64,000 bases of DNA from Phormidium tanganyikae FI6-MK23. GTDB taxonomy: Bacteria > Cyanobacteriota > Cyanobacteriia > Leptolyngbyales > Leptolyngbyaceae. The DNA is taken from positions 1 to 64,000 of the forward strand of contig JAHHHU010000020.1 of NCBI GenBank assembly GCA_019359175.1, written 5' to 3'. Under the pieces are notes generated by a model. The model was not told the origin of the DNA. It worked only from the letters and a program-made list of their open reading frames with translations, and searched no databases. Positions 13,022 to 54,305 of this stretch are shown here, piece by piece (position 1 is the stretch's first letter; each line of letters starts with the position of its first letter). A program made the translations under genes and the position numbers.

Positions 13022-14032
13022 ATGAGCGAGCTAGAACGCTGCTATCAATTACTCGGATTAGAGCCTGGGGCATCGCTCGAAGAGGTCAACCAGGCGTATA
13101 AAGATCTAGTGTTTATTTGGCATCCTGATCGTGTGCCAAAGGACAATCCTCGTTTGGTGCAGAAAGCGGAAGCCAAGATCAAGGAATTGAATCACGCGCG
13201 GGACACTTTGCGATCGCATTTCAAAAACGGTACGGCTGCCAAACCTGCTGAGGCTCAACCGAAACCTGCCTCGCAAACTTATTACCAGTCTTATTATTAT
13301 CGTCCACCAACTTCATCAACGAATGGAAACTCGTCGAGCGGTCGGCAATCAAACGGGCATTCAACGAACGGAAACGCAACGAACGGACATTCGAGCAGCG
13401 GGCATTCAACGAAGGGGAATTCAGAGAAACACTCCTCGAATTCACGCCCGAATTATCATACTTATCAGCCCTATCCCCGACCGAATTATTCCCAATCTTC
13501 CGAAGCGAATGGTCGATCGGATCAACCTCGATCGACCGATGCAAATCAGAAATCTGAGCCGCCGAAACCTCCTGACAATACTCAGAACTACTATCGTCAG
13601 TCGCATTACCGCGCCGAGTACCATCAACCACCAAAATCTCATGCACGTCCACAAACGCCGGATATGACCGGGAAAGATTTGAGTGGACAAAATTTAAAAG
13701 AGAAAGATCTCTCTGGCTATAACCTCAGTCGCGCGAATCTCTCTCATGCAGATTTGAGCGATACGTTTATGCACAAAGCAAATCTCGAAGGCGCGAAATT
13801 AGAAAAAGCAAATCTATTTCGGGCGAATTTGTTGCAGGCGAATTTGTGCGGGGCGGATTTGCGAGAGGCGAATTTGATTGGAGCGGACTTAAGCGGGGCG
13901 GATTTGCGCGGGGCAGATTTGCGTGGGGCAAAAGTGGGATTTGACGATCGTGTAATGGTCAAACTCACAGGAGCCAATCTTCAAGGCGCAATCATGCCCA
14001 ACGGCAAAATTCACGGGGCGCAAACTTCCTGA
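13022..14032 (+). CDS. J-domain protein fused to pentapeptide repeats
   Basis: The 336-residue protein starts with a J-domain (residues 4-66) that keeps the HPD motif at residues 34-36, so it should stimulate an Hsp70 partner. A low-complexity linker (about 75-215) rich in Asn, Gly, Ser, His and Pro follows, with many copies of NGNS, NGHS or SSGHS. The C-terminus (about 220-330) is a run of pentapeptide repeats such as LSGAD, LRGAD and FRANL, which fold as a right-handed beta-helix. Repeat expansion in the linker is visible in the DNA. The combination suggests a scaffold that presents a client to DnaK, but the client is unknown. Confidence 0.9.
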   Translation: MSELERCYQLLGLEPGASLEEVNQAYKDLVFIWHPDRVPKDNPRLVQKAEAKIKELNHARDTLRSHFKNGTAAKPAEAQPKPASQTYYQSYYYRPPTSSTNGNSSSGRQSNGHSTNGNATNGHSSSGHSTKGNSEKHSSNSRPNYHTYQPYPRPNYSQSSEANGRSDQPRSTDANQKSEPPKPPDNTQNYYRQSHYRAEYHQPPKSHARPQTPDMTGKDLSGQNLKEKDLSGYNLSRANLSHADLSDTFMHKANLEGAKLEKANLFRANLLQANLCGADLREANLIGADLSGADLRGADLRGAKVGFDDRVMVKLTGANLQGAIMPNGKIHGAQTS

Positions 14033-48990: not shown

Positions 48991-50154
48991 TTAGAGCAAT
49001 CGATAAAATTCCAAAAGTTCCTTTGCCAATGCTCGATTCGTATATTTCGCGATCGCTCTTTGATACCCCCGCTGTCCTAATTCCTCAGCAAAACCGCGAT
49101 CGTCGATTAATTGCTTGAGTCGATCGCTCAGTTCCTCAACATTCCCCTCTGGAAACACTAATCCCACTTCCCCAATCACATTCGGAATCTCGCCGGAATC
49201 TGATCCAATCACGGGAACCTGGCACGCCATCGCCTCGATTAACACATGACCGAATTGTTCTTTCCATCCAGCAGATGTGAGCGTTTTGAATTGATAGGTT
49301 GTTTCGGATGGCAAAACGAGCGTATTCATTAAATTGATATAGCGATAAACATCAGCATGAGGAACGCTTTCTATCCAAATTAAACGATCGCTAAATCCAA
49401 ATTGTTCGGCTTGTTCTTGAAGTTCTGCTTTGAGTTCGCCGCGTCCGAGTAGAAGAAGTTTCCAGTTACGATCGCGAATCTTCTCCAATGCTTTGATCAA
49501 GGTAAGAATTCCTTTCTCTGGCACAAATCGCCCGACAAATCCTACGACAAAATCACCGAGTTGAATCCCAAGTTTTGCAGCAAGCTCTGGCTGAGATTGG
49601 GGACAAAAGAGCGAATCATCGACACCCAACTGAGGCATGATGCTCATCTTTCCGGTGAATCCACGATCGCGCAAAATCTTCTCTCCGTCTTGGTTGCCCA
49701 CGACGATTCCATCAGTATTTTTGAGGCTGTAAGCTTCAAGAAGCGAAATTGGAAATTTCAATTTGTAAGGCAAATTCCACCAAGTAAAGAAGAGATTCTT
49801 CGCTTTTAATCCAAGTAAATGATTTAGCGTAATCAATTGAGCATATGCCAATGATTTTGAGCCTTGTTCTACTTGGATGATATTCGGACGAAACTCTTTT
49901 AGTAACGAGATTAGATCGGCTCCAAACGTGAGTAGCGCTTGATTGTTTTGGCTGAAGTTAGAAACGGGAACGACTCGAAACGAGCCTTCTTCGCGATATT
50001 GAGTCTCGATTGTATCTTTCATCACGCCGCCCGGTTTCCATCGCTTGGGAACCACGATCGTTACTTCGATTCCCGGTTCTAAGTTCACTAAGGCTCTAAG
50101 CTTTTCGCAGTTGAGATCAACAATATACGAATGGCTGGCAACGAGAATTCTCAT
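48991..50154 (-). CDS. GT4-type glycosyltransferase (complete copy)
   Basis: The 387-residue GT-B enzyme starts MRILVASHSYIVDLNCEKLR and has VGFVGRFVPEKGILTLIKAL and QFGHVLIEAMACQVPVIGSD, with an E-x7-E donor motif. Its ATG overlaps the stop of the GT2 gene by 4 bases. The first 96 codons are duplicated, with about 95 percent identity by eye, in the broken copy at 52641. This copy is intact and probably the working one. Confidence 0.93.
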   Translation of the reverse strand: MRILVASHSYIVDLNCEKLRALVNLEPGIEVTIVVPKRWKPGGVMKDTIETQYREEGSFRVVPVSNFSQNNQALLTFGADLISLLKEFRPNIIQVEQGSKSLAYAQLITLNHLLGLKAKNLFFTWWNLPYKLKFPISLLEAYSLKNTDGIVVGNQDGEKILRDRGFTGKMSIMPQLGVDDSLFCPQSQPELAAKLGIQLGDFVVGFVGRFVPEKGILTLIKALEKIRDRNWKLLLLGRGELKAELQEQAEQFGFSDRLIWIESVPHADVYRYINLMNTLVLPSETTYQFKTLTSAGWKEQFGHVLIEAMACQVPVIGSDSGEIPNVIGEVGLVFPEGNVEELSDRLKQLIDDRGFAEELGQRGYQRAIAKYTNRALAKELLEFYRLL

Positions 50155-50859
50155 CGTTTCACCTCGTCTTGTTGCGTATTTGCCTTCAAACAGAAATCGG
50201 ATTCTTCGCGGACTGCGCTGCCTCGAAACCGCTCATCAAACCAGATGCCATATTTCTCAAACACCTCGCGGCGATAAGACATATTGCAGCCTCGCGCACT
50301 TAAAACCTGTTGCGGTTTCACAGTATGCACAAGGTTTAAGTGATACCAAGCAATCCCCGGATCGTGCGCTTCGGGTGGCAAGTCTTGAATTTCTAATCCT
50401 GATGCAAAATCGGCCAACTTCATTCGATCAAACACTCGACCTGCAACTGCTCCGACCTCGGATCGCTGATAGTTTTTCGCGTGTGCCGCCAAATATCCTG
50501 GCTCTAACTGCACATCGTCATCGATGAACAAAAGAATTTCACCGCTTGATCGACGAACCGCATAGTTTCTCGCCCCCGGCAAACTCGCCCAGTCGAGCTT
50601 AAACCATTGAATCTTTCCAACCTGTGCCAAGTCTTCTAGAAACTGCTGAATATCCGGTTCATGCACAGGCGTTTGATCGACTACCAGGACTTCGTAGCTC
50701 GGATAGTCTTGCTTTAGAACATCGATGAGTGTCTCTCGGAGCGGTTCTTCTCGCCCATAGGTCGGAATGACCACAGAGATAAATGGCTGAGTCATGATGC
50801 CAGAGGAAACAACGCCGTTAGTGTTCCCAGAGACTCGGACTCTAAACCTTAGACAAAAG
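49866..50859. repeat. Duplicated segment, copy A
   Basis: This 994-bp segment matches 52690-54011 in the same orientation. It covers the 5' quarter of the GT4 gene, the GT2 gene and the last five codons plus stop of the histidine kinase. The GT2 part is almost identical, with one difference noticed. The GT4 part has more changes. Copy A lacks 333 bp inside GT2 and has 5 bp that copy B lacks, which accounts exactly for the length difference of 328 bp. Confidence 0.9.
50151..50795 (-). CDS. GT2 glycosyltransferase with internal in-frame deletion
   Basis: The 214-residue protein starts MTQPFISVVIPTYGREEPLR and keeps the GT-A core with the D-x-D site at Asp92-Asp94 (LLFIDDDVQLEPGY). It is the same gene as 52970-53947, but after DFCLK it jumps straight to NTQQDEVK, so 111 codons are gone and the frame is kept. 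The missing part holds the end of the catalytic domain and the hydrophobic C-terminal segment. Activity is doubtful. Its stop still overlaps the GT4 start by 4 bases, so it may now serve mainly to couple translation. Confidence 0.88.
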   Translation of the reverse strand: MTQPFISVVIPTYGREEPLRETLIDVLKQDYPSYEVLVVDQTPVHEPDIQQFLEDLAQVGKIQWFKLDWASLPGARNYAVRRSSGEILLFIDDDVQLEPGYLAAHAKNYQRSEVGAVAGRVFDRMKLADFASGLEIQDLPPEAHDPGIAWYHLNLVHTVKPQQVLSARGCNMSYRREVFEKYGIWFDERFRGSAVREESDFCLKANTQQDEVKR

Positions 50860-52419
50860 AGGAATTTCGATGAAAAACGCTGTTCCTTCAGTTTGGCTCG
50901 ACGTAAAGTAGAGCTTGCCTTGATGGTATTCCGTGACAATCTGATGACTAATTGACAGTCCTAAGCCTTTACCTTTACCAACCGGTTTTGTGGTGAAAAA
51001 CGGATCAAACAGCTTGGATTGAATCTCTGGATCAATGACATCCCCATTATTTGAAATCGTAATGCGTGCCCATCTTCTGTCAATCACCTCGGTCTGAATC
51101 TGAATCATTGGGGATTTAGGTTTTGCTTGTCCGATCGCTTCGATCGCATTCGACAAAACACTATAAAACACTTGATTCAATTGACCTGGGCAGCATTCAA
51201 TCTCAGGTAAATCACCGTAGGTTTTTACTAACTGAATCTCGATCGGATGCAGTACGCTCTTCAGGCGATGCTTTACTAGCAAAATCGTACTTTCAATTCC
51301 TGAGCGCAAGTCCACAGTTTTGCGTTCTGACTCATCTAAGCGCGAAAAAGTCCGTAGCCCGATTACCGTTTCTTCAATGCGCTCTGTTCCTAATAGCATC
51401 GATCGTAGTATTTTCTGTAAATCTTCTATGATGAAAGGAAAATCGATGCGATCAATTTCAGCTTGAATCATCGCGGGAGGAGTCGGCGTATTCTGCTGGT
51501 ATAGCTCAATTAGACGTAACAAATCCTCGGCGTACTGTGCTACATACGTGAGATTTCCTTGAATAAAACTGTTTGGATTATTGATCTCATGCGCTACTCC
51601 CGCGACCAATTGCCCTAGGCTGGACAACTTCTCGGCTTGAATAAAGCATTGCGTCTGGTGTTCAATAAAACGCTGGGCTTGATGTAGTTTCTCCATCGCT
51701 TCAGTCAAGTCCTGATTTTTCTGATGTAGCGCAGATTCGGCAACTTGTCGATCACGCAAATACAATCGCAAAATCTGAAGCACAATTAACCAGGTTGGCA
51801 CTAGGAGTAAAATACTCATCACCATGATTATCAAACACCACTGGAGCGAGGTTTGATAATCCTTGGATTGCGCTTGAAGCTGTTGCTGAATGCTGAGATT
51901 TCTTTGAGCAACACCTGACGCGTAAATTTCTTTCTGAGTTTTGTAGGCTGGACTCGTCAAGAGCGTGAGCGCTTTTTGTGTCTGATTTTGCTCTACAAGC
52001 TGAAACGACTGTAATTCAAGCGCAATTAACGCTTGGTTAGCGGCATCAACCTGCTTTGCGTCCTGAGTCGAATAAATGTGAGGGGCAAGGTTGATGGATT
52101 CTTGAATCACCGCATCGAGTTCTGGGACAAATTTCTCATAGCGTTGCTGCCACGCTCGATCACCTGTTGCCGCGTTCATGAGAGCAGACATCGTGAGGAC
52201 TTCATCAAGATGAGTGGCGCGATCGCTGAGATGCTGTAATTGCTGCTCTTGCTGACGCAGCCGATTGAAGTCCTGGTAAGTGCGCCAATTCATTCCAATC
52301 TGAGGGACAAATAGCAAGATCGTTAATGTGACTGCGATAACGATCGTATGAGAGGGATGCTGAAGCAGTCTGGATCTCCAACGTTGCGGGAGCTGGTGTA
52401 TGGGAAAATGCCTAATCAT
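50842..52419 (-). CDS. Membrane sensor histidine kinase
   Basis: The 525-residue kinase has TM1 (about 25-42), a roughly 150-residue helical extracytoplasmic domain, TM2 (about 193-216), a coiled coil, and a HisKA domain with His277 in GVAHEINNPNSF. The HATPase domain has Asn424 in the N-box (SVLSNAIEAI), ISNNGD as the G1 box, FDPFFTTKPV and GKGKGLGLSI as F and G2 boxes. All catalytic boxes are present. The sensor resembles four-helix-bundle ligand domains. No response regulator is adjacent. It is transcribed with the GT genes behind it; its last five codons lie in the duplicated segment. Confidence 0.93.
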   Translation of the reverse strand: MIRHFPIHQLPQRWRSRLLQHPSHTIVIAVTLTILLFVPQIGMNWRTYQDFNRLRQQEQQLQHLSDRATHLDEVLTMSALMNAATGDRAWQQRYEKFVPELDAVIQESINLAPHIYSTQDAKQVDAANQALIALELQSFQLVEQNQTQKALTLLTSPAYKTQKEIYASGVAQRNLSIQQQLQAQSKDYQTSLQWCLIIMVMSILLLVPTWLIVLQILRLYLRDRQVAESALHQKNQDLTEAMEKLHQAQRFIEHQTQCFIQAEKLSSLGQLVAGVAHEINNPNSFIQGNLTYVAQYAEDLLRLIELYQQNTPTPPAMIQAEIDRIDFPFIIEDLQKILRSMLLGTERIEETVIGLRTFSRLDESERKTVDLRSGIESTILLVKHRLKSVLHPIEIQLVKTYGDLPEIECCPGQLNQVFYSVLSNAIEAIGQAKPKSPMIQIQTEVIDRRWARITISNNGDVIDPEIQSKLFDPFFTTKPVGKGKGLGLSISHQIVTEYHQGKLYFTSSQTEGTAFFIEIPLLSKV

Positions 52420-52540: not shown

Positions 52541-52660
52541 GCAAACATTTTTGCTAGAAAAATCACGGCATTCGCTACAACAACCACGGCGTTCGTTATG
52601 ACAAGCGGAATTTTTGCCACAACGATCGAGATTTTCGTCATCACAAACAGGATTTCATCG
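52541..52660. repeat. Degenerate 21-bp tandem array 1
   Basis: Five units of exactly 21 bp run from 52541 to 52645, with a weak sixth. Each has TTCG or TTTG at unit positions 10-13, and the first bases of units two and three are ATCACGGCATTCG and ACCACGGCGTTCG. The array lies between the kinase start and the broken GT4 copy. It is in the same orientation and register as array 2. Confidence 0.75.
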
Positions 52661-52973
52661 CTTTCGTTTCTTCTTCTTCGGATCTTCCAGTTCTACTTGA
52701 ATGATATTCGGACGAAACTCTTTTAATAGCGAGATTAGATCGGCTCGTGAGTAGCCCTTGATTGTTTTGGCTGAAGTTAGAAACGGGAACGACTCGAAAC
52801 GAGCCTTCTTCGCGATATTGAGTCTCGATCGTATCTTTCATCACGCCGCCCGGTTTCCATCGCTTGGGAACCACGATCGTTACTTCGATTCCTGGCTCTA
52901 AGTTCGCTAAGGCTCTAAGTTTTTCGCAGTTGAGATCAACGATATACGAATGGCTGGCAACGAGAATTCTCAT
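52641..52973 (-). pseudogene. Broken 5' fragment of a GT4 gene
   Basis: The first 72 codons repeat the GT4 gene at 48991-50154 almost exactly (MRILVASHSYIVDLNCEKLR onward). A 5-bp deletion near 52746 then shifts the frame. The homology ends at about 52690, where the sequence runs into array 1. In the original frame the tail would read LEDPKKKKRKR and stop. The rest of the GT4 gene is absent. It still overlaps the GT2 stop by 4 bases. It is a remnant and very unlikely to function. Confidence 0.92.
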
Positions 52974-54011
52974 AGTTTCACCTCGTCTTGTTGCGTGTAG
53001 ATTTGTCCGTCGTTCCAGAGAGAGCGAATCACTGTTGCGATCGCACTCAAAAAGCCCAACGTATAAAACCCGAATCGCGTCACGATTTTGATCAGGGAAC
53101 CGCTTTTATGACAAGGCGGACGACCCAGCACATGACAATCAAACAATCGGAAAAAGAATCGCGCCGCCTGCGAAATTGTGAGATTGTTCAAGCCCATTAA
53201 AAAGTGATTGTGATAGAACGTCATCTGATATTTCAACGATTTGGTGCTGATATCGTGACAGCCGCCCGTCTCTTCTCCCAAATGCACTAATGAAGCTTCT
53301 GGGTCATACCAAACAATCAATCCTGTCTTTCTCAGTTTCAAACAGAAATCGGATTCTTCGCGGACTGCACTGCCTCGAAACCGCTCATCAAACCAGATGC
53401 CATATTTCTCAAACACCTCGCGGCGATAAGACATATTGCAGCCTCGCGCACTTAAAACCTGTTGCGGTTTCACAGTATGCACAAGGTTTAAGTGATACCA
53501 AGCAATCCCCGGATCGTGCGCTTCGGGTGGCAAGTCTTGAATTTCTAATCCTGATGCAAAATCGGCCAACTTCATTCGATCAAACACTCGACCTGCAACT
53601 GCTCCGACCTCGGATCGCTGATAGTTTTTCGCGTGTGCCGCCAAATATCCTGGCTCTAACTGCACATCGTCATCGATGAACAAAAGAATTTCACCGCTTG
53701 ATCGACGAACCGCATAGTTTCTCGCCCCCGGCAAACTCGCCCAGTCGAGCTTAAACCATTGAATCTTTCCAACCTGTGCCAAGTCTTCTAGAAACTGCTG
53801 AATATCCGGTTCATGCACAGGCGTTTGATCGACTACCAGGACTTCGTAGCTCGGATAGTCTTGCTTTAGAACATCGATGAGTGTCTCTCGGAGCGGTTCT
53901 TCTCGCCCATAGGTCGGAATGACCACAGAGATAAATGGCTGAGTCATGATGCCAGAGGAAACAACGCCGTTAGTGTTCCCAGAGACTCGGACTCTAAACC
54001 TTAGACAAAAG
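52690..54011. repeat. Duplicated segment, copy B
   Basis: This 1322-bp segment matches 49866-50859 in direct orientation. It holds the GT4 fragment, the complete GT2 gene and, at its right end, the last five codons of the kinase gene without the rest of it. Immediately after it, GGGCTAATTCAAGAT (54010-54024) resembles GGGCTAATCGAGAT (52525-52538), which in copy A lies upstream of the kinase. This suggests that the kinase was deleted from copy B. Confidence 0.85.
52970..53947 (-). CDS. GT2 family glycosyltransferase (complete copy)
   Basis: The 325-residue protein starts MTQPFISVVIPTYGREEPLR and has a GT-A fold with Asp92-Asp94 (D-x-D), ARGCNMSYRREVFEKYGIWF as acceptor-side motif and VREESDFCLKLRKTGL. 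Its C-terminus has a hydrophobic stretch (TRFGFYTLGFLSAIATVIR) that may hold it at the membrane. It is the full-length version of the shortened gene at 50151-50795 and probably the only active copy. Downstream is only the broken GT4 fragment, so it may complement the remaining GT4 in trans. Confidence 0.92.
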   Translation of the reverse strand: MTQPFISVVIPTYGREEPLRETLIDVLKQDYPSYEVLVVDQTPVHEPDIQQFLEDLAQVGKIQWFKLDWASLPGARNYAVRRSSGEILLFIDDDVQLEPGYLAAHAKNYQRSEVGAVAGRVFDRMKLADFASGLEIQDLPPEAHDPGIAWYHLNLVHTVKPQQVLSARGCNMSYRREVFEKYGIWFDERFRGSAVREESDFCLKLRKTGLIVWYDPEASLVHLGEETGGCHDISTKSLKYQMTFYHNHFLMGLNNLTISQAARFFFRLFDCHVLGRPPCHKSGSLIKIVTRFGFYTLGFLSAIATVIRSLWNDGQIYTQQDEVKL

Positions 54012-54069
54012 GGCTAATTCAAGATGATGCGATCGTGTTGTGAAGGGACGACGCTATCAATTCAAATAA

Positions 54070-54258
54070 GAAAGTGTTTTCACTGAGAAAATCAGGACGT
54101 TCGTAGTGAAGATTTCGACGTTCGCGGTATCGGTTGCGGTTTTCACGAAGAAAGTCGTAACAGTCGTGGTGAGGATTGCGACGTCCGTGGTGAATGGTGC
54201 GATCGTTGCCGTATCGAATCTAAGGTTCGCGGTAACGGCGATGAAATTGGTAAGGACA
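54070..54258. repeat. Degenerate 21-bp tandem array 2
   Basis: Nine contiguous 21-bp units fill 54070-54258 with no gap. Typical unit beginnings are ATCAGGACGTTCGTAG, ATTTCGACGTTCGCGG and ATTGCGACGTCCGTGG. Because 21 is a multiple of 3, open frames persist on both strands. The plus strand gives heptads such as IRTFVVK and ISTFAVS; the minus strand gives FTTNVLI and FTTDVAI. I do not call either frame a gene. It shares orientation and register with array 1. Confidence 0.85.
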
Positions 54259-54305
54259 AATTGCGATATTTCTGATGACACTCAAAGTTTTCGCCGCGTT
54301 TAGTC

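Follow-up and report, generated by a model that had tools for sequence, protein, structure and literature searches.

The question raised by this locus is what two degenerate tandem arrays with a 21-bp period might be, lying as they do on either side of a second copy of a hormogonium polysaccharide gene cassette. A preliminary description of the DNA had offered three ideas, namely recombination substrates that drove the duplication, a decayed repeat protein, or a protein-binding array. The window, by which we mean the whole 64,000-nucleotide stretch that was analysed, corresponds to contig C16 in a draft genome of 5.74 Mb; it carries split rpoC1/rpoC2 genes, a cyanobacterial trait, as well as 47 copies (0.9 expected) of the octamer GCGATCGC, known as HIP1. 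A 15-bp periodicity at 13670-13990 reads as ordinary pentapeptide repeats. Copy A of the cassette comprises an intact hpsO (48991-50154, minus strand; NCBIfam HpsO, 715 bits, cut-off 575) and a shortened hpsN (50151-50795, minus strand), of which only residues 1-205 match copy B. Beyond it lies a sensor histidine kinase gene (50842-52419, minus strand; an ORF with HATPase_c), whose 5' side faces array 1 (52549-52653, unstranded; five 21-bp units). Copy B consists of an hpsO fragment (52641-52973, minus strand), joined to tail DNA of another gene and out of that gene's frame, and an intact hpsN (52970-53947, minus strand; 325 aa; NCBIfam HpsN, 605.7 bits, cut-off 425); both genes specify hormogonium polysaccharide glycosyltransferases. 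The reading frame of the fragment enters array 1 by 13 bases, and the fused tail in its own frame reads ...EDPKKKKRKR and then stops. Array 2 (54078-54266, unstranded; nine 21-bp units of the same family) begins approximately 130 bp upstream of the start of hpsN copy B. The hpsN/hpsO copies are 95-100% identical, and homology of copy B spans 52690 to 54011, with the arrays approximately 36 and 66 bases beyond its ends and thus on both sides of it, as first reported. We also identified an imperfect inverted repeat just upstream of hpsN (GGGAACACTAACGGCGTTGTTTCC on the minus strand; 53957-53980, and 50805-50828 at copy A), which is kept with small changes in all eight genomes of the genus and is likely an operator or promoter element.

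Both arrays are confirmed as real 21-bp repeats of five and nine units, with the bounds given above when set in unit register. Position identity at a lag of 21 is 0.55 in array 1 and 0.45 in array 2. The best period-21 scores (each over 84 comparisons) are 52 and 43, against maxima of 41 and 40 in 2000 dinucleotide shuffles of the respective intergenic stretches, such that no shuffle matched either array; when all periods from 10 to 60 were allowed, the observed score was reached by 0 and 2 of 2000 shuffles, respectively. Because 60 shuffles of the whole window peaked at 45 over all periods, array 2 is not outstanding window-wide by self-similarity alone. It is secured by a core motif built only from 14 arrays of relatives, for which array 1 (38.6) and array 2 (30.6) are the first and second places in the window, followed by 13.1 at the next place and 16.7 in the reversed window. 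With the family motif the two score 39.1 and 33.6, above the maximum of 17.9 in reversed sequence, and each has at least four cores spaced 20-22 bp apart. Tandem Repeats Finder, a check suggested at the outset, picked up just two units of array 1 and missed array 2 altogether. The arrays share period and orientation, as had been claimed, but not register, their offset being 1529 = 72 x 21 + 17; moreover, the proposed conserved centre GACGTTCG occurs twice in array 2 and is absent from array 1.

What the two arrays have in common is a core of the form TTCG...GAA, and the unit as a whole is an 11-bp odd palindrome, TTCGTNACGAA (degenerate), followed by a 10-bp spacer that differs between arrays. 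In eight arrays found without any palindrome pattern, mirror complementarity is 0.546 at core position 6, compared with 0.388 at the next best centre and a median of 0.249. This per-unit dyad score is independent of array orientation, whereas the symmetric secondary preferences of the pooled motif were discounted because mixed array orientations produce such symmetry. Neighbouring units agree better in the core than in the spacer (difference 0.302 vs 0.487), with the core difference lower in 22/22 arrays including both in the window, a set in which every register was set on the core and to which 14 arrays were admitted through the palindrome pattern (some of them also matching the plain model R1). 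The eight pattern-free arrays give 0.399 vs 0.558, the core being lower in all eight, and the 11-base block that varies least in them coincides exactly with the core.

Core-to-core distances cluster at two helical turns. Among 159 spacings in 28 regions, 117 equal 21, a count favoured by the 21-base register in which 22 of the regions had been cut, and 15 equal 42 or 84. Eleven are one base short of a multiple (20, 41, 62), and six are codon-compatible without being multiples of 21 (24, 39, 60, 66), several of these at array edges. Arrays with a 41-bp period occur in G002 and G006, two genomes of the genus; the latter has 82/84 matches at 41, and its cores of type TTTGTTACAAA alternate with GTCGTTAGGAA. 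Such a period breaks the reading frame and keeps approximately four helical turns. The arrays carry a dyad-symmetric site at whole helical turns.

The arrays belong to a larger family. The preliminary description had tied its case to further arrays in the genome and a period-21 signal above shuffles, and both were found: the genome holds at least seven arrays, the window pair among them, with others on contigs C10, C1, C3, C23 and C4. Twenty 20-kb stretches, 400 kb in all, were sampled, and the C4 array (38.8) was the one clear case among them; the highest non-array stretch scored 18.7 and reversed sequence at most 17.9. The proposed search of relatives likewise yielded arrays in the genus and beyond. 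A pattern of three core units, allowing 3 mismatches at most, matched 12 of 42 genomes of the family, including 7/8 of the genus, and its reversed counterpart matched one, G050. The reversed pattern occurs eight times per strand in G050, where another 21-bp repeat may exist. Counting as clear only G009 and G048 outside the genus, and leaving aside matches in G018, G041 and G049, the array family extends from the genus to no fewer than two related genera. At 2 mismatches the core pattern matched 6 of 291 genomes of the class, 5 of them inside the family, which bounds the spread only roughly because the window's own genome is missed. The sole match among 257 class genomes outside the family (G107) was rejected as a coding heptad coiled coil. 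An exact pattern run over genome contigs was too strict to inform on distribution (two records of other phyla), and a plasmid collection gave two weak Acinetobacter matches (E 0.2).

The array on contig C10 (L002:1393-1740; counterparts in L044 and L076) is 85% identical to array 2 over 80 bp, at a different locus. Corresponding arrays with similar flanks are present in G005, in G006 and in a genome of another genus, G048; in these the units follow the same order with one gap of exactly one unit (21 bases). Identity among these orthologues is 0.616 in the core, 0.539 in the spacer and 0.58-0.61 in flanking intergenic DNA, and the gene on the far side differs in G006. The array sits between a divergent gene that resembles an AAA-type ATPase by sequence and a small conserved gene (MPRAQRTSRILDKG...), and the flanking stretches beyond it are well conserved, other genus included. 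The repeats of a further array of the genus, G005:C31, are almost perfect, and the units of its counterpart in G007 are different. In the window's genome, degenerate arrays with different motifs and periods of 41 and 42 bp also lie at L145:2511 (C7:122511) and L155:6312 (C77:206312); no ORF of 100 codons covers the first, and only the edges of two cover the second. Phased arrays may be commoner in this genome than the TTCGTNACGAA family alone. Other candidates proved coding or unrelated and were dismissed. These were L006, which by sequence resembles a coiled-coil gene, L004, and three sites of period 21 among the sampled stretches (two in L149 and one in L138) that fall inside ORFs of 142-487 codons.

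The arrays are intergenic. By approximate gene calls, this holds for 28 arrays except for two edge overlaps with strong calls (the C4 array and the G005 array before the kinase) and weak ORF calls at four; six arrays have one side on which no gene is called within the stretch analysed, and the calls missed the hpsO fragment that runs into array 1. At least one gene 5' end faces 24/28 arrays; the other four are flanked by convergent genes, which rules out promoter function as a general role.

An array at the hpsN/kinase locus is present in 8/8 genomes of the genus, with scores from 21.9 to 43.5, two of which are weak. All eight genomes have an hpsN match; at E up to 1e-70, seven have one copy and the window's genome two. 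The kinase has full-length matches (69-78% identity) in G002, G005 and G007, where an array lies upstream of it (38.7, and more weakly 21.9 and 24.7, respectively) and follows a gene ending in DPKKKKKRKR or DPKKKKKRRR, similar to the tail DNA joined to the hpsO fragment in the window. In G003 (33.0), G004 (43.5) and G006 (34.3) the array precedes hpsN with no kinase between. G001 has its array (39.7) approximately 2.2 kb from hpsN, beyond an intervening gene whose tail appears to remain in G004 and in the window. Among the relatives, two distinct arrangements can be told apart: either the kinase stands before hpsN and is itself preceded by the array, or the array stands before hpsN with no kinase between. 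Both occur in the window.

These comparisons bear on the idea that the arrays drove the hpsN/hpsO duplication, which we rejected: seven relatives with a single hpsN have an array at the same locus, and when array 2 served as a BLAST query on its own genome, array 1 was not among the matches at E up to 10, despite the 95-100% identity of the gene copies. Since all eight genomes have an array here and the window shows both arrangements, the arrays are older residents of the locus. It is more likely, we infer, that the gene copies arose by recombination between the two arrangements.

We hypothesize that the arrays are a non-coding intergenic platform bound cooperatively by a putative dimeric DNA-binding protein, a reading to which we give a probability of roughly 0.45. 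Each array would act as a row of mirror-symmetric sites of the degenerate TTCGTNACGAA type, one per two helical turns, each recognized weakly by the dimer. Because the sites share one face of the helix, many dimers could bind side by side in a cooperative manner, and the bound dimers might assemble, over 100-250 bp, into a filament or a bent complex, thereby shaping the local DNA or tuning its neighbours (hpsN and the histidine kinase gene). Single sites could then decay, and units turn over by slippage, while the phased row persists. The dyad core, two-turn phase, one-base spacing errors and persistence at the locus fit a cooperative platform for a dimeric protein; the protein, its cooperativity and any effect on genes are inferences. 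Of the three ideas in the preliminary description, the protein-binding array is the one best supported by these sequence comparisons; its interpretation is partly supported overall, in that the arrays look more like a putative protein docking strip than a gene or the cause of the duplication. The platform reading has its limits: the arrays share ancestry and are for that reason not independent evidence, a five-pair palindrome could by our own arithmetic arise by chance at some centre of one ancestral unit with a probability of approximately 0.04, the C10 orthologues are no better kept than flanking intergenic DNA, the kinase-side arrays of G005 and G007 are weak, and some arrays lie between convergent genes. 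More tentatively, the family might represent an undescribed, lineage-specific architectural element in which weak palindromes spaced at two turns nucleate cooperative filaments of the putative dimer. It is similarly speculative that, at intergenic sites such as the hps locus, the row of such an element persists while its units are continually replaced.

The main alternative, possible if less probable, is a lineage-specific minisatellite family, whereby an ancestral array was copied to intergenic sites and then expanded and decayed by slippage, with no present function. Copying is suggested by the 80 bp shared between array 2 and the C10 array at different loci. The homogenization of units within arrays whose spacers differ from one array to another, the near-perfect G005:C31 array with its differing G007 counterpart, the arrays between convergent genes and the conservation of orthologous arrays at no more than the level of flanking intergenic DNA all speak for such a history. 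It accounts less readily for the lower variability of the core (22/22 arrays, and 8/8 of those found pattern-free), for spacing deviations that more often fall one base short than stay codon-compatible (11 vs 6), and for an array at one locus in 8/8 species despite unit turnover and changes in neighbouring genes. Under this alternative, the core would be better kept only because it seeds or survives slippage.

Intrinsic curvature or flexibility, in which bending of the helix by TT...AA steps in phase would influence supercoiling or transcription with no dedicated sequence-specific protein, is unlikely. AA/TT power at 10.5 bp in 19 arrays is approximately five times that of base shuffles (0.796 vs 0.152 +/- 0.034), and the least variable core positions in the eight pattern-free arrays are T2, A10 and A11; phased-AT signals are also described in cyanobacterial genomes, in the available part of that account (PMC4132750). 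However, any 21-bp repeat has 10.5 bp among its harmonics, and power is also elevated at the 7-bp harmonic (0.597); moreover, the inner core CGTNACG is conserved too, which bending alone does not need.

It is very unlikely that the arrays encode a small protein of repeated heptads (FVTNVAI, for example) or are what is left of one after decay. The frame starting at the core is open in 13/26 arrays and its counterpart on the other strand in 15/26, but these two core-set frames are open more often than others and the core holds no stop in them. No frame is open in all 26, and six arrays have none, including the C10 counterparts in G005 and G048 (frame labels are approximate for arrays with 41-bp spacing). 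The short weak ORFs that a simple coding model called over 4/28 arrays score 10-16. Third positions are slightly less conserved among the C10 orthologues (0.537 vs 0.619), yet the codon-periodic substitution pattern expected of a decayed repeat protein is not clear in the spacers, where mismatches by codon position are 0.475, 0.475 and 0.507. In the core they are 0.268, 0.283 and 0.437, where the palindrome centre and edge fall on third positions. Furthermore, an 88-codon open frame in G004 has its first ATG, GTG or TTG at codon 53, inside the repeats; the 41-bp period of G002 and G006 breaks the frame; and Pfam gave no match for two array-2 ORFs.

Least likely of all, at a very small chance, is that transcribed arrays act in UTRs as chains of hairpins (ACGAA-spacer-TTCGT): the fold of the better strand reaches z below -2 in 9/26 arrays (strongly so in some, such as G009:C103 at -6.2 and C4 at -5.5; single folds gave -2.0 for array 2 and -2.3 for the C10 array) and core positions 1 and 11 covary (z 4.4), but both strands stay above -2 in 17/26 arrays, mean z is -1.2 over 52 strands, the other four dyad pairs lack clear covariation (z -0.9 to 1.9), the cross-spacer hairpin arms covary only at their outermost pair (z 2.7), Rfam gave no match at gathering score in the window, and folding of four arrays (five folds) and then of 26 revealed no general signal.

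Intergenic tandem repeats in bacteria are usually regarded as products of slippage. The long tandemly repeated repetitive (LTRR) sequences of Anabaena/Nostoc PCC 7120, reportedly described by Masepohl in 1996, have a 37-bp unit. In the accessible text of one account they resemble the present arrays in being tandem, intergenic and from a filamentous cyanobacterium, and differ by description in belonging to another lineage and in the hairpins suggested for them, folding not being general here (PMC2408588). The TAACTGA heptamer repeats of Beggiatoaceae and some cyanobacteria are likewise tandem, intergenic and proposed to bind a regulator; they have a 7-bp unit, in the principal genome of that study mostly sit immediately ahead of start codons, and are presented without mention of palindromes in the available part of that text (PMC4679880). 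REP-like palindromes and small dispersed repeats are short, extragenic and present in many copies per genome, and REPs, as far as the accessible descriptions go, are palindromes of 20-40 bp, in contrast to an 11-bp odd palindrome at fixed two-turn spacing (PMC3733652, PMC3116915). PARCELs share tandem repetition and dyad symmetry and frequently have both strands open to translation, but in the portion of their description available they are coding, with a 75-bp unit (25 aa); here the period is 21, the arrays are not coding and the two array-2 ORFs match no Pfam family (PMC2996958). The phased-AT 'structural code' of cyanobacteria also places A/T steps in helical phase, and is described in the accessible text as genome-wide, near 11 bp and mostly in coding regions of highly periodic species (PMC4132750), whereas the window arrays are individual intergenic elements, tandem in structure and built on a specific core. 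None of these systems, by the available parts of their descriptions, pairs an odd palindrome with a period fixed at two turns. A literature search, mostly outside whose reach lay subscription papers, found no earlier description of the arrays, and papers containing exact core strings appear unrelated by title and the start of the abstract.

A degenerate family has retained its dyad core and helical phase while unit identity in the window arrays has dropped to approximately 45-55%, and eight species still have an array by the same genes. Should a protein read the phase, the arrays would constitute a chromatin-like or regulatory platform in filamentous cyanobacteria, beside a hormogonium polysaccharide locus; if none does, they would provide a clean natural case of the copying, expansion and decay of a bacterial minisatellite.
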